Shown here piece after piece: positions 786 through 8,263 of a stretch of DNA of 42,909 nt. Origin of the DNA: Anaerolineae bacterium (GTDB taxonomy: Bacteria; Chloroflexota; Anaerolineae; Aggregatilineales; J027); the NCBI GenBank assembly GCA_019913005.1, contig JAIOHL010000253.1, forward strand, positions 1-42,909. Reading direction: 5' to 3'. The position numbers and the translations under genes were made by a program. Position 1 is the first letter of the stretch. Each line of letters opens with the position of its first letter. The notes under the pieces are model-generated. The model did no database searches. It saw only the letters and a list, made by a program, of their open reading frames with translations, and was not told where the DNA came from.

Positions 786-2072
786 ATGAGCAGAATTCCT
801 CTACCCACCGCTTCGACATCCAGAAATGCACTCAAAGCATTATTAAAACGAAAAACTGTTCTTGCCGCATTGGAAGTTTTCCATGCAGAATTGGGGGACG
901 TGTTTCAGATTCCCCTACCGGGCTTTAATCCGATCATGCTGGCTGGGTCGGAGGCAAACCGATTTGTTTTAGTCGAACAACGAGACACATTACGCTGGCG
1001 CTTGGAGCAAGACCCGATTGTTCGACTGCTGCGACATGGGGTTTTGGTAGAAGATGGGGACTCTCACGATAATCTACGTCGTCAAATGAATCCAGCTTTA
1101 CACCGAACCAAACTGCAAGATTATGTGCGGCATATGTGCGACTGTACGAATTTTGTTTTGGCCCAATGGGATTCTTCGTCACCCCTAAATATTTCATTAG
1201 AAATACGTCGAATGGCCCTCTTGGTTCTAACAAAAACGCTCTTTGGAGTGGATTTTGAACCAGAAATGAACCGGCTGTGGCAACCCATTCTGCGTACCTT
1301 GCGCTATATTTCGCCCGGCTTGTGGGTGATATGGCCCAATATCCCTCGTCCCGGCTACCAAAAGGCATTCCGACAGCTTGATGAATACTTTCACCGTCTT
1401 ATTGCGTATCGTCGCGCTAACTCCACTGGGAGAGAGGATTTATTGAGCCTTTTAATTGCCTCAGGGATGTCGGATGATTTGATTCGAGATCAACTTCTCA
1501 CGATGATAATCGCTGGGCATGACACCAGTACGGCTCTCCTAAGTTGGACGTTGTATTTACTATCACGTCATCTGGATATTCAGGTAGAAGCTCAAGCAGA
1601 GGTTGACAGGGTATTAGGTTCAAATCCTCCGCATTATAGTTCGCTATCGGAGCTACACTATTTAGATCAGATTATCAATGAGACCCTACGTCTATACCCT
1701 CCAATTCATGCTGGTTTGCGGATTGCAGCAACAGATATTGAATTTGGTGAGTATTTTATTCCAAAAGGAACACGAGTGATGTATTCCATCTACCTTAGCC
1801 ATCGTGATGCACGATATTGGCCTGAGCCGAATGTATTTAGACCGGAGAGGTTTGCATCGGCTACTCGCCCACCTTATGTTTTTTTGCCATTTGGCGGCGG
1901 GCCACGTAATTGTATAGGAATGGCGTTTGCTCAGGTCGAAGCCAAAGTTGTGCTTGCACGCATTCTCCAGAAATTTGATTTGCACTTCACTGGCAAGCCT
2001 GTACGTCCCTATATGGGGGCAACACTTGAACCACGCCCCGCTGTCTGGCTAAACATTAAAGAACGAGTCTAG
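786..2072 (+). CDS. Cytochrome P450, probable carotenoid hydroxylase
   Basis: A complete 428-residue soluble bacterial P450. Visible landmarks are the I-helix oxygen-binding motif AGHDTST (243-249), the K-helix ExxR as ETLR (299-302), PERF (353-356) and the haem loop FGGGPRNCIG (369-378) with the thiolate ligand Cys376. It would use molecular oxygen and electrons from a ferredoxin or flavodoxin system, which is not encoded nearby. The neighbouring phytoene synthase, desaturase and lycopene cyclase suggest a carotenoid substrate. The Thermus enzyme CYP175A1, a beta-carotene 3-hydroxylase, is the obvious functional parallel. The hydroxyl so made would be the attachment point for the sugar added by the adjacent glycosyltransferase. 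The P450 stands alone on the plus strand and its stop codon overlaps that of the convergent glycosyltransferase. No clear ribosome binding site precedes the ATG. Family certain; substrate inferred. Confidence 0.9.
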   Translation: MSRIPLPTASTSRNALKALLKRKTVLAALEVFHAELGDVFQIPLPGFNPIMLAGSEANRFVLVEQRDTLRWRLEQDPIVRLLRHGVLVEDGDSHDNLRRQMNPALHRTKLQDYVRHMCDCTNFVLAQWDSSSPLNISLEIRRMALLVLTKTLFGVDFEPEMNRLWQPILRTLRYISPGLWVIWPNIPRPGYQKAFRQLDEYFHRLIAYRRANSTGREDLLSLLIASGMSDDLIRDQLLTMIIAGHDTSTALLSWTLYLLSRHLDIQVEAQAEVDRVLGSNPPHYSSLSELHYLDQIINETLRLYPPIHAGLRIAATDIEFGEYFIPKGTRVMYSIYLSHRDARYWPEPNVFRPERFASATRPPYVFLPFGGGPRNCIGMAFAQVEAKVVLARILQKFDLHFTGKPVRPYMGATLEPRPAVWLNIKERV

Positions 2073-3217
2073 GCCTTATAATAACGACCTTTCCACTGAA
2101 TTTCTTTTCCCCGACGGAGCAGGGCGTTTAACCCTAATGCCATCACACTCCAAGCAGCCAAAGGCGTGGTCATCACTTCTAAGAATGACCTTCTAAAATA
2201 GAGGTTTAGGCATCCTCGCAAAAAAGCTAGCCAGCCAATTTCTAGAAAGGGCAACCGCTTCCGAGGAGCGCTCAACAAATAAAAGAACGGCAAAACGAAA
2301 ATACAGGCGTAACCCCATGCAAAGAGTGGGCCGAACCAAGCAGGGGGTTTTTTAGTTGCCGAAGTTTCGAGGCCCAACATGAGATTCTTAGAAAAACCGT
2401 CCCATACCTCATGAGTATTATGGTACATCCGGCAACTTAGCATAGATGTGCCATTCACCATTGCTGTTTTATATCCTCCTAAACGGACTTGTTTAGCCAA
2501 TGCAAAGTCATCTACGAGTTCATTAAAAATCGCTTGGTGACCGCCTATTGCATGATAGGCTTCGGCATTGACCAACAAATATTGCCCATTGGCAAGCGTG
2601 ATACTTGAACCATTTTGCTGAAGCGCATTTAGGTCAACAGCAATGAGCGGCAGGAAATCTAGGATGAATGAAACGACTATACGTTCACCCCAACTCTCCG
2701 TGATCTGCTTGGGGAAAGCGCTCAACAGCGCCGCACCCAACTTTTTAGCTTGTGCAATACCCTGTGCAACGCTGGTTGAAGTATGGACAGTATCTGCATC
2801 GGTAAATAACAACCATTCGCCCGTTGCCTGTTCTGCTAGGCGGTGACAAGCATAACTTTTACCATTCCATCCTTTGGGGGGTTCTTCTGTTCCATGCAGC
2901 ACCCTGACCTTCGGGTATTGAGTCGCCAGACTGTCCAACAATATCCCTGTTTCATCGGATGACAGATCGTTCAGCACAATAATTTCAAAATTTGGATAGG
3001 CTTGGCTTGCTAAGGATTCAATACAGGACACAATGTTACGGGCTTCATTCCGTGCTGGAACTAAAACACTTACCCGGGGCAGAGAACTGCTAGGGCTTGG
3101 TGTCAAGTGTTGAGCCTGTCGTAAATACCTGAGGTTGTGCCACAGTCTATAACTCATGAACCAAAGCAACGATAAGGCCGTAACATGGACTCCAATAGTC
3201 GTGTATTTTTTTGTCAT
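2069..3217 (-). CDS. Family 2 glycosyltransferase, CrtQ/CruC-like
   Basis: This 382-residue membrane-anchored GT2 enzyme would transfer a sugar from a nucleotide sugar to a lipid-like acceptor. An N-terminal hydrophobic segment (about 8-25) is followed by the GT-A fold: VLVPARNEARN (51-61), the DxD metal/nucleotide-sugar motif D140-A-D142, a GGH acceptor-region segment and a VDDFALAKQV segment. Hydrophobic stretches near the C-terminus (about 290-365) suggest further membrane helices. This arrangement matches the CrtQ (staphyloxanthin) and CruC type of carotenoid glycosyltransferases and also HpnB-like enzymes. Its start codon overlaps the stop of the upstream PlsY-family gene as ATGA (3214-3217), so the two are translationally coupled. 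Its stop shares CTAG (2069-2072) with the convergent P450. Context favours glycosylation of a hydroxycarotenoid; the sugar is unknown. Confidence 0.85.
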   Translation of the reverse strand: MTKKYTTIGVHVTALSLLWFMSYRLWHNLRYLRQAQHLTPSPSSSLPRVSVLVPARNEARNIVSCIESLASQAYPNFEIIVLNDLSSDETGILLDSLATQYPKVRVLHGTEEPPKGWNGKSYACHRLAEQATGEWLLFTDADTVHTSTSVAQGIAQAKKLGAALLSAFPKQITESWGERIVVSFILDFLPLIAVDLNALQQNGSSITLANGQYLLVNAEAYHAIGGHQAIFNELVDDFALAKQVRLGGYKTAMVNGTSMLSCRMYHNTHEVWDGFSKNLMLGLETSATKKPPAWFGPLFAWGYACIFVLPFFYLLSAPRKRLPFLEIGWLAFLRGCLNLYFRRSFLEVMTTPLAAWSVMALGLNALLRRGKEIQWKGRYYKA

Positions 3218-3813
3218 ATTTTGTGTTCCACAGGTTGATCCAGCGAAGGTTTCGACTGGGGCAAAAGAAGAAACACACTAATTTTGGCAAGGAGAATCAA
3301 CAATTGCATCAGCGCAAGTATCAGCATCCAAAATGGCTTTCCCCGTAAAATGAGGTAGGCGAACAAAGCGGCAGGGACGACAAAAGTCCGCAGTATATCA
3401 TTTTTGATTGTAAGCGAGGCCGCAATGGCTGCACCACCCATGACAAGGGGAATTTCGTACAGGGTTAACCCCGACCAAACCCCAAAAAAACTGGTGAGTG
3501 CCCGTCCTCCGCGAAATCCCAGAAAAATCGAAAATGCGTGACCGAGGCTTGGCATGAGGGCAATCCAAAGCAGTTGCTCTCCCGAAAAATCTAGTACCCA
3601 CCGTGCAATTGAAACAGGGATAAACGCTTTGAAGAAATCAAGAAGCAAGACACTAATGCCAAGCCGCCACCCTCCTACACGAAAAGCGTTTGCAGCACCG
3701 GGATTTCCATCTGCTACGGTACGAACATCAGTCTGAAAGAAAAGTACCCCCAACCAGACCGACCATGGAAATGCCCCCGATAGATAGGCAAGAATCAAAA
3801 GCGCGAGAAACAT
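3214..3813 (-). CDS. PlsY-family acyltransferase, possibly acylating a carotenoid glycoside
   Basis: A 199-residue integral membrane protein of the PlsY (acyl-phosphate:glycerol-3-phosphate acyltransferase) family. It shows the three family motifs: an N-terminal SGAFPWSVWLG segment, GNPGAANAFRVGG, and GHAFSIFLGFRGGRALTSFFG split by short hydrophobic helices. Canonical PlsY transfers an acyl chain from acyl-phosphate to glycerol-3-phosphate at the inner membrane face. Here it sits between a CarH-like photoregulator (17 bases upstream) and a carotenoid-type glycosyltransferase (4-base overlap) in one leftward transcription unit. That placement is hard to explain for a housekeeping enzyme. I infer that it may be a paralogue that acylates the glycosylated carotenoid, replacing the unrelated CruD/CrtO-type acyltransferases. 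An ordinary PlsY caught in the operon is the alternative. Confidence 0.8.
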   Translation of the reverse strand: MFLALLILAYLSGAFPWSVWLGVLFFQTDVRTVADGNPGAANAFRVGGWRLGISVLLLDFFKAFIPVSIARWVLDFSGEQLLWIALMPSLGHAFSIFLGFRGGRALTSFFGVWSGLTLYEIPLVMGGAAIAASLTIKNDILRTFVVPAALFAYLILRGKPFWMLILALMQLLILLAKISVFLLLPQSKPSLDQPVEHKI

Positions 3814-3830: not shown

Positions 3831-4793
3831 TTAACGAATCAATGGTTTGAACTTATGCAATATATGGTCAAGTGTTTCAACGCCGTCTTGCAGGGTTTTG
3901 CCCAAAAATACACCGGGTACATGGGATACCAGTTCTGGTTTTTCCAAAAATATGCGCCCACCATAACTAACGAGTGGCTGATTCGTTTCTGCTGCTTTGG
4001 GTAACCAATTGGGCCAGTCAGTTAAAGCATGGGCTGTTTCTTCGCTCATCGCTACAAAGACGAGGGCCATAGCTTTTACGGCGTCTACAAATGATCCTAA
4101 ATCAGCGAGCGGCATAGTCTGTCCTAAATAGACGACGGGCCAACGCAACCGTCGTAATAGAACTGCCAACATCAAAAGACTGCCTTCATGGAGTTCCCCC
4201 GGGGCACAGGCCAGCACCACTGGATTGACTTGGTAGGCAGGTGGCCCGATTCTCATCCATAATATGAGGCGTTGGCGAAGAAAATGTGTTGCAAAATGCT
4301 CGGTAGCTATACCTATTTGCCCCTCGGCCCACGCCTCACCGATGTCATAAAAAGTTGGGCCAATGACCTCTAAAATCAGGATTTCGACAGAAAGGAGGAT
4401 GAGCGCTTCCTCTAGCACTTGGTTCGCCCCATCTAGATCATGACGACACAGTAAATCAAACAGCCGTTGGCGAAACATGGTGGGTACCTCCCCACGACTG
4501 ACTGTTGGTGTGTGGGATGGCGGCAAGATGTGATCATGATGAGGTTGTTGCAGCGCCCGTATCGCTTGGCTAATTTGCATACCTTCATCCACCCGCTGCT
4601 TAACCCATTCCAGTCGCATAACCTCTTGATGCGAGAAGAGACGATGACCACCGGATGTCCGCGTAGATTTTGGAAAATCATAGCGGCGCTCCCATACACG
4701 CAACGTGGTTTCTGGGATTTGGGTCATACGTGAAACCGCGCCGATGTTAAAGAGAGGTTCGTCATCGGATGTGAACTCAGGGGGTCGTAACAT
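3831..4793 (-). CDS. carH: CarH/LitR-like MerR-family photoregulator with a B12-binding domain
   Basis: A repressor of the CarH/CarA/LitR type, in which adenosylcobalamin in the dark drives DNA binding and light releases it. The N-terminal MerR helix-turn-helix (about 15-70) includes TLRVWERRYDFP and SGGHRLFS. The C-terminal half has the four-helix cap motif Wx9EH (W155, E165, H166) that packs over the adenosyl group, then the cobalamin segment E200-L-H202, where His202 is the expected lower ligand, then a Ser near 250 and G278-G279. The canonical glycine after ExHxx is displaced here (ELHEGS). I start at the ATG at 4793 because AAAGGA (4800-4805 on the plus strand) is 6 bases away, whereas the upstream ATG at 4799 abuts it directly. 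It heads the unit with the PlsY-like and glycosyltransferase genes and faces crtB across a shared control region. Confidence 0.88.
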   Translation of the reverse strand: MLRPPEFTSDDEPLFNIGAVSRMTQIPETTLRVWERRYDFPKSTRTSGGHRLFSHQEVMRLEWVKQRVDEGMQISQAIRALQQPHHDHILPPSHTPTVSRGEVPTMFRQRLFDLLCRHDLDGANQVLEEALILLSVEILILEVIGPTFYDIGEAWAEGQIGIATEHFATHFLRQRLILWMRIGPPAYQVNPVVLACAPGELHEGSLLMLAVLLRRLRWPVVYLGQTMPLADLGSFVDAVKAMALVFVAMSEETAHALTDWPNWLPKAAETNQPLVSYGGRIFLEKPELVSHVPGVFLGKTLQDGVETLDHILHKFKPLIR

Positions 4794-4816
4794 CTTCATT
4801 CCTTTGTTTTTAGCTC

Positions 4817-4845
4817 AGTATATAAGAAAATACTCATTTTGTCCA
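4817..4845 (-). promoter_or_regulatory. Sigma70-type promoter of the carH unit
   Basis: Read on the minus strand, TGGACA (4845-4840) and TATACT (4822-4817) are separated by exactly 17 bases, about 20 bases upstream of the carH ribosome binding site. It points away from the crtB promoter and lies next to the direct-repeat operator, so autoregulation is plausible. Confidence 0.7.
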
Positions 4846-4848
4846 ATT

Positions 4849-4881
4849 TATCTCTACATTAGTTTGACAAATATGATACAT
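4849..4881 (+). promoter_or_regulatory. CarH-type operator: tandem 11-bp direct repeats
   Basis: Three consecutive 11-bp blocks begin at 4849, 4860 and 4871, each with ACA at positions 8-10. The first two (TATCTCTACAT, TAGTTTGACAA) fit the consensus nAnnTnnACAn reported for the Thermus CarH operator at every fixed position. The third (ATATGATACAT) keeps ACA but lacks the A and T. The second block contains the -35 hexamer of the crtB promoter, so a bound CarH tetramer would exclude RNA polymerase in the dark. Confidence 0.75.
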
Positions 4882-4892
4882 TATTTTATGAT
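4864..4892 (+). promoter_or_regulatory. Sigma70-type promoter of crtB-crtI-crtY
   Basis: TTGACA (4864-4869), a 17-base spacer and TATGAT (4887-4892) make a near-consensus promoter. Transcription should begin near 4899, which rules out the GTG at 4893 as the crtB start and supports the ATG at 4926 with GGGAGG at 4914-4919. The -35 box lies inside the direct-repeat operator. Confidence 0.85.
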
Positions 4893-4925
4893 GTGTCTAA
4901 GTTTATTCTACATGGGAGGACGGCA

Positions 4926-5912
4926 ATGGGTGTCGAACTGGCGATATGGGAGTCTCGGTTACTTTCCTTAGCCCATGAGGCACTTACCAGCCCCACAGTT
5001 GATGCACACATTCGGGTTGAAGCTGATGCGCTTGCTACGGCATATGCCTATTGTGCCCGCATTACCCGAACCAATAGCAACACCTTCTATATGGCTTCTC
5101 AGTTTCTGCCAAAACACAAACGTATTGCTGTCCAAGCCTTATACGCTTTCTGTCGCTGTACGGATGATTTGGTTGACGAAACACAAGGTTTAGCCCATGC
5201 GGATAAGGTTTTTTCTAATTGGCGGGCCCGTTTGAATAATTCATATCTTGCTGCCCATGACCCTGTTCCCCTTGCGTGGATGGATACCCAAACCCGGTAT
5301 CAGATTCCGAAAGGCTATGCAGATCAATTAATCGCTGGAGTCGCACGTGATCTAACCCCAAAACGCTACGAGTCCTTTGCAGATCTGGCCGAGTATTGTT
5401 ATGGGGTGGCCTCCACAGTTGGACTTATGTCTATGCACATCATTGGTTTTGAAAGCCAAGCAGCCCTGCCATATGCAGTTAAGCTTGGTATCGCGTTGCA
5501 GTTGACCAATATTCTCCGGGATGTTGGGGAAGATTGGCAGGCAGGCCGTTTGTATCTTCCCCTCGATGAATTAAATATGTTTGGATTAGATGAATCTGAT
5601 ATTGCCGATGGACAGGTGGATAATCGTTGGCGGGATTTTATGAAGTTTCAAATCAACCGGGTTCATCATCTATATGAAGAGGCACAGCCGGGTATTCGGC
5701 TCCTCAATACAGAGGGTCGGTTCGCAATTGCCGCTGCTGCAAACTTGTATCGCGCCATTTTGGATGATATTGAAACACACGACTACGATGTATTTCATCG
5801 TAGGGCACATATCGGTTTATGGGGGAAAGCCAGCCGCTTACCGGGTATATGGTGGAACAGTCGAGCCAATAATCTGAACCACCCAACATATCCCAATTAT
5901 AGGGACATTTAA
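4926..5912 (+). CDS. crtB: Phytoene synthase
   Basis: Condenses two geranylgeranyl diphosphates to phytoene, the first committed step of C40 carotenoid synthesis, at the inner face of the membrane. The 328-residue protein has both aspartate-rich metal-diphosphate motifs of squalene/phytoene synthases: DDLVD (80-84) after the family-typical ALYAFCRC, and D199-V-G-E-D203 within LTNILRDVGEDWQAGR. The YLPLDEL that follows is also characteristic. I start at the ATG at 4926, not the in-frame GTG at 4893. The GTG follows the -10 hexamer with no room for a transcript leader, whereas GGGAGG sits 6 bases before the ATG. It is the first gene of a tight three-gene unit, with crtI 24 bases downstream. Expression should be light-dependent through the CarH-type operator on its promoter. 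Confidence 0.95.
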   Translation: MGVELAIWESRLLSLAHEALTSPTVDAHIRVEADALATAYAYCARITRTNSNTFYMASQFLPKHKRIAVQALYAFCRCTDDLVDETQGLAHADKVFSNWRARLNNSYLAAHDPVPLAWMDTQTRYQIPKGYADQLIAGVARDLTPKRYESFADLAEYCYGVASTVGLMSMHIIGFESQAALPYAVKLGIALQLTNILRDVGEDWQAGRLYLPLDELNMFGLDESDIADGQVDNRWRDFMKFQINRVHHLYEEAQPGIRLLNTEGRFAIAAAANLYRAILDDIETHDYDVFHRRAHIGLWGKASRLPGIWWNSRANNLNHPTYPNYRDI

Positions 5913-5936: not shown

Positions 5937-7460
5937 ATGTCTAGGATTATTGTCATTGGGAGTGGATTTGGCGGATTGGGCGCGGCGATTCGCTTGGCAG
6001 CCAGAGGTCATGAAGTTGAGATATTTGAAAAGCGTGACAAGCTCGGTGGTCGAGCCTATGTTTATGAAATTAACGGTTTCAAATTTGATGGCGGGCCTAC
6101 CGTCATTACCGCCCCCTTTATGTTCGATGACCTTTGGGCTACAGCAGGCAAGCGTCGTGAAGATTACTTTGATTTAGTGCCATGCAATCCGTATTATCGC
6201 ATTTTTGACCATACGGGGCGATGTTTTAATTACAACGGGGATGAAGCCTACATCCTTAATCAAATTGAATCATGGAATCCAGACGATAAAGCTGGCTACC
6301 AAAAATTTATGGGGACCACCAAGTCTATCTTCCAAAAGGGATTTGTCGAGCTTGCCGATAAGCCCTTTCTCCATTTCACAGATATGTTGAAAGTGGCGCC
6401 TGACCTTATCAAAATGCAATCCTATCGCAGTGTATATGGCTATGTAGCCCAGTTTATTCAAAATGATTTTTTGCGCAGGTGTTTTACTTTCCACCCGCTT
6501 CTGATCGGAGGTAATCCGTTCGACTCTCCTTCTATTTATGCCATGATTCACTATCTTGAACGTGAATGGGGCATTCATTATGCACGAGGTGGTACGGGTG
6601 CAATTGTTGAAGCGATGGGCAAGCTTTTTGGTGAGCTAGGCGGTAGAGTACACCTGAACGCTGATGTTGCTGAAATTCTTGTGGATGAAAAGCATGGACA
6701 TCGTGTACAGGGTATCCGTCTGGCTGACGGGACTGTCCATACAGCAGATCATATTGTTTCCAACGCGGACGTAGCATTTACTTATCGTAATTTGATTCCA
6801 GCCAAATACCGACGCATCTACACTGACCGCAAGCTCGAACGAATGAAATATAGCATGTCGCTTTTTGTTATTTACTTTGGCACCAAGCGACAGTACCGCG
6901 ATCAGGGCCTAGCACACCATAACATTATCCTGAGCGAGCGTTACAAGGCGTTGTTAAGTGATATCTTTGATAAACAGCACCTGCCAAACGATTTTTCACT
7001 CTATCTGCATATGCCGAGCCTGACTGATCCTTCGATTGCCCCAGCAGGGTGTGAGAGTTTTTACGTTTTGTCACCCGTTCCTCACCTTGGCGGTGATACC
7101 GATTGGGCGCAAATGGCAAAACCGTATCGAGATGCAATCATGCAATTTTTGGAGGAAAATTACCTGCCGGATTTGCAGGCGAATATCATCGCCGAGCATT
7201 ACATTGACCCGCTACATTTTCAGAATGTACTCAATAGCCATAAGGGAGCAGCCTTCTCTCTACAACCAGTTCTGACTCAATCCGCATGGTTCAGACCCCA
7301 CAATCGCTCGGAGGAGTTTGAGAATCTTTATTTCGTCGGTGCAGGCACCCATCCGGGCGCTGGGTTACCCGGCGTTTTGTCCTCTGCCATCATTGCAGAA
7401 AATCTGATCGGCGACCCTGTACCCTCACCATCCTCGCGGTTATCCCTTGTGAGTGTATAA
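5937..7460 (+). CDS. crtI: Phytoene desaturase
   Basis: FAD-dependent CrtI-type desaturase of 507 residues that converts phytoene stepwise toward lycopene. The N-terminal Rossmann motif GSGFGG (8-13) sits in [18 protein letters not shown]. It is followed by [11 protein letters not shown], where the acidic residue binds the ADP ribose, and FDGGPTVIT. Near the C-terminus, [19 protein letters not shown] is the conserved FAD-binding signature of the carotenoid desaturase/isomerase family. AGAGGA lies just upstream of the ATG. The gene lies between crtB and the lycopene cyclase, so lycopene is the expected product that the next enzyme cyclises. How many desaturation steps it performs cannot be read from sequence, though a cyclase partner makes the four-step lycopene outcome likely. 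Confidence 0.95.
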
Positions 7461-7465
7461 TCCAT

Positions 7466-8263
7466 ATGACCTATTTTGCTTTTCTCCTTTACTTTCTCGT
7501 GATACCTATTTTGATACTGAGCATACTCACCTACAATGATTGGCGCAGGGGACTAAGGCTTCCTCCTTCATTGAGACTGATAGCCCCTTGGCGGATAGTG
7601 GTGATTCTTATTGGAATTGCGGTGGTCTATACCACCCCATGGGACAACTACTTGGTGGCTACGGGGGTCTGGTCATATGATCCTGCACTTGTTACGGGGA
7701 TTACTTTTGGCTGGGTTCCATTGGAAGAATACACATTTTTTATTCTTCAGCCCATTATGACTGGCCTCTGGTTGCTGTTTTTGGCTCGTCGTGTGCGCCC
7801 CGAAGAGCCATTTGTCCCTCAACTCAATATTCGCCTAGCGTCAGTGGCTGTGATAAGCATTGCTTGGCTCACTTCAATCGGCCTTTTTCTTTCGGGTTGG
7901 GAACCTGTTACCTATCTGTCCTTAGAATTGATGTGGGGATTCCCGGCAATCATGGTGCAGCTCGTTTTTGGGGCAGATATTCTCTGGCACCAGCGCCGCC
8001 TCGTCATACCAGCAATTCTAATTGCCACGCTTTATTTGTGCGTTGCAGATAGTCTTGCGATTCAGGATGGGACTTGGACCATTAATCCTGATCTCAGTCT
8101 CGATATTTTGGTTGGGGGTATCTTGCCAATTGAAGAAGTGCTCTTCTTTTTGCTCACCAACACATTGGTGGTGTTTGGAGTCATCTTGGGATTGACCTAC
8201 GAGAGTTCCTATCGTTTGTCTTCACGGGTCATGAATCAACTAATACGGAATTCGGGTGAATGA
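7466..8263 (+). CDS. crtY: Lycopene cyclase, fused CrtYc-CrtYd type
   Basis: A 265-residue polytopic membrane protein made of two homologous halves, each with the catalytic PxEE motif: PLEEYTFF (85-92) and PIEEVLFF (221-228). This is the fused form of the heterodimeric actinobacterial CrtYc/CrtYd cyclase, as also found in archaea and in the N-terminal part of fungal bifunctional cyclase/phytoene synthases. It should turn psi ends of lycopene into beta rings, giving gamma- and/or beta-carotene. The start lies 5 bases after the crtI stop with little Shine-Dalgarno signal, which suggests translational coupling. The last codons (about 8240-8263, LIRNSGE and stop) fall inside a dispersed repeat that recurs at 31895. 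The native C-terminus therefore seems to have been rewritten by an insertion, without loss of the motifs. Confidence 0.9.
   Translation: MTYFAFLLYFLVIPILILSILTYNDWRRGLRLPPSLRLIAPWRIVVILIGIAVVYTTPWDNYLVATGVWSYDPALVTGITFGWVPLEEYTFFILQPIMTGLWLLFLARRVRPEEPFVPQLNIRLASVAVISIAWLTSIGLFLSGWEPVTYLSLELMWGFPAIMVQLVFGADILWHQRRLVIPAILIATLYLCVADSLAIQDGTWTINPDLSLDILVGGILPIEEVLFFLLTNTLVVFGVILGLTYESSYRLSSRVMNQLIRNSGE

Follow-up and report, generated by a model that had tools for sequence, protein, structure and literature searches.

The described system closest to the locus reported here is that of Thermus thermophilus, in which carH and crtB are divergently arranged on pTT27 and the operator consists of tandem 11-bp repeats, one of which contains TTGACA. 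This operator is composed of three full TnnACA repeats in the carH direction, and its TTGACA fits a carH promoter. CarH proteins are defined by Wx9EH together with the classic motif ExHx2Gx41SxV/Tx22-27GG (PMC8156234), and known CarH operators overlap the -35 box of a crt promoter (PMC9304148). According to the latter source, the operators of the myxobacteria Cystobacter, Haliangium, and Sorangium are mixtures of full and degenerate 11-bp repeats lying over crt promoters, and mapping experiments have defined one myxobacterial operator that is made up of a single full repeat and two degenerate ones (PMC9304148). Myxococcus CarA, which belongs to the same family, shares a crt operator of roughly 55 bp with the CarH of M. 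xanthus (PMC9304148). A relative of the regulator reported here that has a solved structure is CtMerR (8JBS/8JBT), a MerR-type protein that carries Arg at the position of His132 of Thermus CarH, binds adenosylcobalamin (AdoCbl), and responds to light; the same source gives GxxW, EH, GxxH, and GxxxP as a light-response signature (PMC11796333). For Chloroflexota, we found no experimental work on CarH in the open-access papers searched beyond a remark on Herpetosiphon, in which carH lies beside a phytoene synthase gene and carotenoids are made constitutively (PMC6210107).

Here, a regulator, a predicted site, and a presumed target are brought together at one locus in Chloroflexota. The stretch of DNA analyzed, called the window below, comprises 42,909 nucleotides of contig JAIOHL010000253.1 from an Anaerolineae bacterium (assembly GCA_019913005.1). 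As in Thermus, carH and crtB are divergent: the minus strand encodes a CarH-type MerR regulator of 322 aa (3831-4799), the plus strand encodes the phytoene synthase CrtB (4926-5912; SQS_PSY, E 5.1e-78), which is the presumed target, and the two genes are separated by an intergenic region of 126 bp (4800-4925). In the direction of crtB follow the genes for a crtI-family desaturase (5937-7460, plus strand; TIGR02734, E 1.3e-177) and a lycopene-cyclase-domain protein (7466-8263, plus strand; TIGR03462, E 4.5e-38, in two matched stretches). On the minus strand, a PlsY-like acyltransferase gene (3214-3813) and a family-2 glycosyltransferase gene (2069-3217) are the second and third genes of the presumed carH operon. 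A cytochrome P450 gene (786-2072) lies on the far side of the carotenoid block, and a P450 gene is likewise found beyond phr and crtB beside the carH of Thermus.

The repeats occupy a 33-bp tract of the intergenic region (4849-4881, plus strand). A first-pass annotation of this DNA had placed three ACA triplets 11 bases apart, starting at 4856, 4867, and 4878, and these positions are exact (4856-4858, 4867-4869, and 4878-4880). It had further stated that two of the three blocks fit nAnnTnnACAn at every fixed position, a consensus it gave for the T. thermophilus CarH operator and that agrees with the published one (PMC8156234). The two blocks are the direct repeats DR1 (4849-4859, TATCTCTACAT) and DR2 (4860-4870, TAGTTTGACAA), both on the plus strand. 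The third block (4871-4881, plus strand) is a degenerate pseudo-repeat of the form GnnACA, in which the consensus A (position 2) and T (position 5) are replaced by T and G, respectively. The middle block, i.e., DR2, holds TTGACA of the predicted crtB promoter, as had also been noted; this -35 box (4864-4869, plus strand) is separated by a 17-bp spacer from the -10 box TATGAT (4887-4892, plus strand). For carH, we infer a promoter on the minus strand consisting of TGGACA (4840-4845), 3 bases from DR1, and TATACT (4817-4822) at a distance of 17 bp, and this TGGACA-17 bp-TATACT arrangement is identical in the two relatives of the same genus that carry both genes (L003/L009 and L004/L008). All of these boxes were assigned by their match to the consensus and not from mapped starts.

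The hallmark of a CarH operator is a tandem array of 11-bp nnnnTnnACAn repeats over the -35 or -10 box of a crt promoter, and the window contains such an array, made up of two full repeats and one pseudo-repeat with the -35 box within DR2. As in Thermus, TTGACA lies within one of the tandem repeats; in contrast to the three full repeats in the carH direction found there, the window has two full repeats and one pseudo-repeat, in the crtB direction. Degenerate repeats also occur in documented operators of myxobacteria (PMC9304148), and this composition therefore lies within the known range, although the myxobacterial systems differ from the window in phylum and gene order. Against an operator speak the facts that the full repeats number only two in the window and that the third block is not conserved. 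On balance, we consider it very probable that the adjacent CarH-type regulator uses 4849-4881 as its operator, and the sequence of this tract provides good support for regarding it as a new example of the CarH-operator kind, classical in form.

The explanation of the whole locus that we consider best, and to which we give a somewhat better than even chance, is built on observed features, i.e., repeats that lie on the promoter and recur in relatives, and kept residues that contact the adenosyl group or serve as cobalt ligand. What we infer in addition is the operon structure, the repression, the AdoCbl binding, and the light release. In the dark, AdoCbl would be held by Wx9EH and His204 of the regulator, and an oligomer of the regulator would occupy the two full repeats and the pseudo-repeat, covering the crtB -35 box and abutting the divergent carH -35 box. 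Because the oligomer would cover or abut both -35 boxes, both the crtB-crtI-cyclase set and the carH-acyltransferase-glycosyltransferase set would be repressed. In the light, the adenosyl group would be lost, binding would be weakened, and both operons would be turned on.

The regulator was compared with 34 clade loci, consisting of 24 from the same order and 10 found at the phylum level, and with 28 comparators outside the clade; these loci are the best 30 per search by similarity to the window, and the counts below are therefore not a census. In a quick tree of 61 rows, the clade (33 rows) forms one side of a branch with an SH-aLRT of 98. The first-pass description of the divergent neighbor as CarH-like is borne out by family and structure matches, which identify a MerR-cobalamin protein of the CarH type. 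CarH chains head the PDB matches, led by Thermus CarH (E 8.7e-33), and CtMerR is a weaker match (E 2.2e-10). The DNA-binding domain is of the MerR type (Pfam MerR_1, E 1.3e-13), with 30 of 67 aligned positions identical to Thermus CarH, and its recognition helix RxWERRY reads RVWERRY. Like Thermus CarH, the regulator has Wx9EH (W157, E167, and H168) and the lower axial cobalt His of E/DxH (E202-L-H204). The Trp of Wx9EH is present in 33 of the 34 listed clade members (Phe in L019) and the EH in all 34, and the lower His is kept in all 33 members that cover it. The signature parts GxxW, EH, and GxxH are present as GEAW, EH, and GELH; GxxxP was placed at G226-P230, an unsure assignment given that PMC11796333 puts the motifs between residues 128 and 177.

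In contrast to these kept residues, six positions of Thermus CarH (numbered here as in that protein: 132, 176, 180, 192, 201, and 222) are all replaced in the window. His132, which is the upper cobalt ligand of the light state in Thermus but is not universal, is Ala (residue 158) in the window and Ser in both genus relatives, and it is kept in 9 of the 34 listed clade members (absent in 25), L013 being of the type that has it, vs. 24 of the 28 comparators. Of the classic motif, GG is present, and the remainder (the Gly/Pro of ExHx2G/P, and SxV/T) is replaced by HEGS and VAM; Gly180 has become Ser and Ser222 has become Val. Among clade members, G180 occurs in 3/33 and S222 in 0/33, and the comparators have S222 in 23/28 and Ala or Thr in 5/28. 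The R176-D201 bridge of the Thermus head-to-tail dimer is replaced by Leu and Thr. Both residues are absent from all 33 clade members, but they are weak markers because they are mostly missing in the comparators as well (R176 is kept in 6/28 and D201 in 7/28). G192, a dimer-dimer contact, is Arg in the window and kept in 5/33 clade members. The NCBIfam equivalog TransRegCarH is the best NCBIfam match, with a score (159.7 bits) under its cut-off of 400. The Pfam B12-binding Rossmann domain (PF02310) was matched at E 0.0014 in the window and at E ≤ 1 in all 23 aligned members, the best at 4.5e-10. The weak score in the window (18.9) does not disqualify the protein, because Thermus CarH itself (25.4) is below the cut-off of 32.1. 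An AlphaFold2 model from the window, L008, and L009 sequences had a mean pLDDT of 50.5 and was left out of the evidence. To judge from these residues and matches, the regulator is a new CarH variant and a putative AdoCbl photoreceptor in a divergent clade, which departs from the formal definition of that class in one tested motif. Two other identities were rejected: CarA lacks the Trp of Wx9EH, whereas Trp157 is present in the window protein, and a class II LitR has the four-helix half of the cobalamin domain only, whereas the alignment of the clade profile with CarH extends into the Rossmann half.

Not all regulators of the order show these replacements. In five loci of the same order (L031-L035), His132, R176, G180, G192, D201, and S222 are all kept. 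Seven genomes of family f7 (G134-G138, G140, and G141) have two regulator matches each, one of those in G138 being partial, and in five genomes of this family the better match is one of L031-L035, with Thermus-type residues. In the same family as the window, two further loci, L007 (1117-2460) and L005 (1468-2823), encode CarH-like proteins of about 450 aa with a C-terminal extension. The match of the L007 protein to the photocobilin structures 8j2w/8j2x spans residues 141-418 and so runs past the cobalamin domain, which suggests that the two proteins may be MerR-cobalamin-biliverdin regulators.

The first-pass annotation had predicted B12-based light control of carotenoid synthesis. The part of this claim that concerns B12 is supported by Wx9EH, the lower cobalt His, and a PduO-type adenosyltransferase encoded in the genome of the window, in which no BtuR-type adenosyltransferase was found. 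B12-dependent light control as a whole is only partly supported, since part of the published B12-binding motif (the Gly of ExHx2G, and SxV/T) is replaced, as are the light-state ligand His132 and the R176-D201 bridge. We consider AdoCbl binding by the regulator probable and light control plausible, as predictions from its residues. The exact Thermus release, by bis-His cobalt and a break of the head-to-tail dimer, is excluded because His132, R176-D201, and Gly192 are replaced; to judge by these residues, light release must differ from that of Thermus CarH, or it may be weak. The joint claim that the tract is the operator of the adjacent regulator and that release from it is AdoCbl-dependent and driven by light has, in our estimate from the sequences, a chance barely above one-half.

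The alternative that survives best is that the regulator binds the operator but has no direct light switch. It would then be a stable dimer like CarA, indifferent to light and B12, or a sensor of cobalamin, oxygen, or a partner protein. In its favor is the replacement of His132, R176, D201, G192, and the motif residues Ser (of SxV/T) and Gly (of ExHx2G). The carH-phytoene synthase pair of Herpetosiphon is without light induction (PMC6210107), and the family can lose B12 sensing, as in the B12-independent CarA (PMC9304148) and the class II LitR (PMC9758184). However, the adenosyl-contacting Wx9EH, whose Trp is lost in CarA, is retained across the clade with a single Trp exception, the lower His is retained throughout, and every aligned member matches the Pfam B12-binding Rossmann domain at E ≤ 1. 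We consider the absence of a direct light switch less likely than not, although it is the most serious competitor of light release. For the branch as a whole, a tentative model, to which we give somewhat less than an even chance, is that it keeps the adenosyl-capping Trp, the EH, and the lower ligand, lacks the dimer bridge, the motif Ser, and mostly the upper His, and that light or another signal frees the 11-bp operators via a different cobalt ligand and oligomer. The H132A variant of Thermus CarH binds AdoCbl and is mostly tetrameric in the light according to PMC10442372, and an earlier report cited there disagrees; in that work on Thermus, absorbance after photolysis was at 359 nm for bis-His and at 352 nm for hydroxo cobalamin (PMC10442372). 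Because His132 is absent in 25/34 members while the adenosyl-cap residues and the 11-bp repeats persist, the branch is suited as a natural test of this dispute, i.e., of whether light-driven release requires the His that adjoins the Trp.

The persistence of the operator was analyzed in relatives. Five genomes of the genus were searched; carH and crtB were both found in three and both unfound in two. The first-pass annotation had named the absence of the 11-bp pattern from close relatives that keep the gene pair as evidence against it, and such relatives still have two of the three repeats. The two same-genus carriers retain every one of the eight T/ACA bases in DR1 and DR2; both have T for A at position 2 of DR1, and their third block is TnnGCA vs. 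GnnACA in the window. The idea that, within the genus, the operator changes less than its flanks was rejected, the changes being 4 and 6 of 33 positions in the tract vs. 5 and 4 of 93 in the remaining intergenic DNA. The intergenic region as a whole is slower (9 and 10 of 126 changed) than the four-fold sites of crtB (40 and 38 of 127). In L010, which belongs to another family of the same order and has a regulator 63% identical, the gene pair is kept, along with two full repeats in phase; the second repeat holds the -35 TTGACA, and an extra TnnACA lies 12, not 11, bases upstream.

Across the clade, carH faces crtB in 10/34 listed loci and a crtI-family gene in 2/34; several of the remaining loci have little upstream DNA. 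Thirteen carH-crt regions were tested as whole intergenic regions, including L086, whose contig ends before its crt gene. The repeats were significant on the crt strand in 10 of these (P ≤ 0.016), and no significant crt-strand tract was found in L078 (0.52), L080 (0.06), or L084 (0.09). In nine of the 10 significant regions (all but L079), the crt-side TTGACA lies within a repeat; besides the window, these are L003, L004, L010, L081, L082, L083, L086, and L087. A tract on the carH strand was not significant in the window, and it was significant in L081, L086, L087, and L079 (P 0 to 0.04). These results bear on the view that the repeats serve mainly in carH autoregulation, with crtB control as a by-product, which is not exclusive with the operator reading. 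Repeats of this type lie upstream of carH in many clade members with no crt gene found nearby, and the TTGACA inside the T. thermophilus repeats fits the carH side. However, it is the crtB -35 box and not the carH -35 box that sits within a repeat in the window, and the same applies to the crt-side TTGACA in the eight further loci named above, which makes a mainly autoregulatory role improbable.

The strongest evidence for an operator comes from tests that are independent of the motif of the first-pass annotation. When the 24 carH upstream regions from the order were compared with themselves, lag 11 gave the best self-match (12.92 of 22) and lag 22 gave 11.04, vs. 8.6-10.0 for all other lags between 4 and 25. 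In the 15 members under 75% identity, the corresponding values were 12.93, 11.47, and 8.8-10.2. Taken singly, only 14 of the 24 regions gave P < 0.05 at lag 11, and the periodicity is therefore a group property; for L003 and L004, the lag-11 window with the best match is located downstream of the operator. An unsupervised three-block model, with free strand and offset and no preset motif, was trained on 15 orthologues without a crtB neighbor. At 11 bp, the model scored 15.7-15.8 log units per sequence vs. 7.7-9.6 at 9, 10, 12, and 13 bp, and the 11-bp controls gave 6.7-7.4 on shuffled and 6.7-7.8 on further-upstream regions. The learned repeat was nAncTnnWCAA, and all 15 sites were antisense to carH. 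In the held-out window, the model selected 4848-4880, one base off the frame of the first-pass annotation, with P = 0.002 in one test and 0 of 500 in another.

Chance was also evaluated by shuffling. Over the whole 42.9 kb of the window, the two-block pattern has a single occurrence vs. 0.15 expected, and at least one in 14 of 100 shuffles; two blocks with a third ACA occur once vs. 0.01 expected, and in 1 of 100 shuffles. For the intergenic region alone (126 bp), 5000 dinucleotide shuffles scored on both strands gave P = 0.010 for the two-block score and P = 0.0016 for the three-block score of 11 of 12, and none of the other periods from 6 to 17 bp exceeded 9 of 12 there, vs. 11 at 11 bp. By themselves, these shuffle statistics are moderate evidence against chance. 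In the 7.6-Mb genome of the window, TnnACA-n5-TTGACA has 16 sites, vs. 4 for the reversed-pattern control. None of the 15 sites outside the window was seen before a crt gene, as judged from frame starts. A near-consensus -10 box was found at the window site and at L067 only, the others having at best 4 of 6; the L067 site precedes a putative uracil phosphoribosyltransferase gene (named from first residues), and the L064 site includes a third ACA in phase, but the best -10 candidate there matches at 3 of 6 positions and is followed by no more than a 91-aa frame. It is very improbable that the 11-bp pattern is a chance feature of an AT-rich promoter in which TTGACA alone matters, as the degenerate third block that differs in close relatives, the two-block P, the 14 of 100 whole-window shuffles, and the 16 genomic sites might suggest, since a model from other genomes with no preset motif picks the same bases and the 11-bp periodicity is shared by the carH upstream regions of the clade as a group.

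The neighborhoods of the clade loci were also inspected. Conserved carotenoid neighbors at other members of the order were rejected, as 20 loci, some of them cut by contig ends, had crtB in one case and a photolyase gene in three. In three of the 20 loci (L047, L055, and L061), a clade member without a crtB neighbor lies within about 6 kb of the photolyase gene, and an epimerase-like SDR gene (putative, named from first residues) faces carH in L011, L023, L029, and L030; both are possible light-stress targets of other kinds. The acyltransferase and glycosyltransferase genes follow carH in the window and in eight of the 10 phylum-level clade loci (L078-L080 and L083-L087). Six of these eight have a divergent crtB, and the contigs of L085 and L086 end first. 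The carH-acyltransferase-glycosyltransferase set may represent a module for carotenoid glycosyl esters that is controlled by the same switch.
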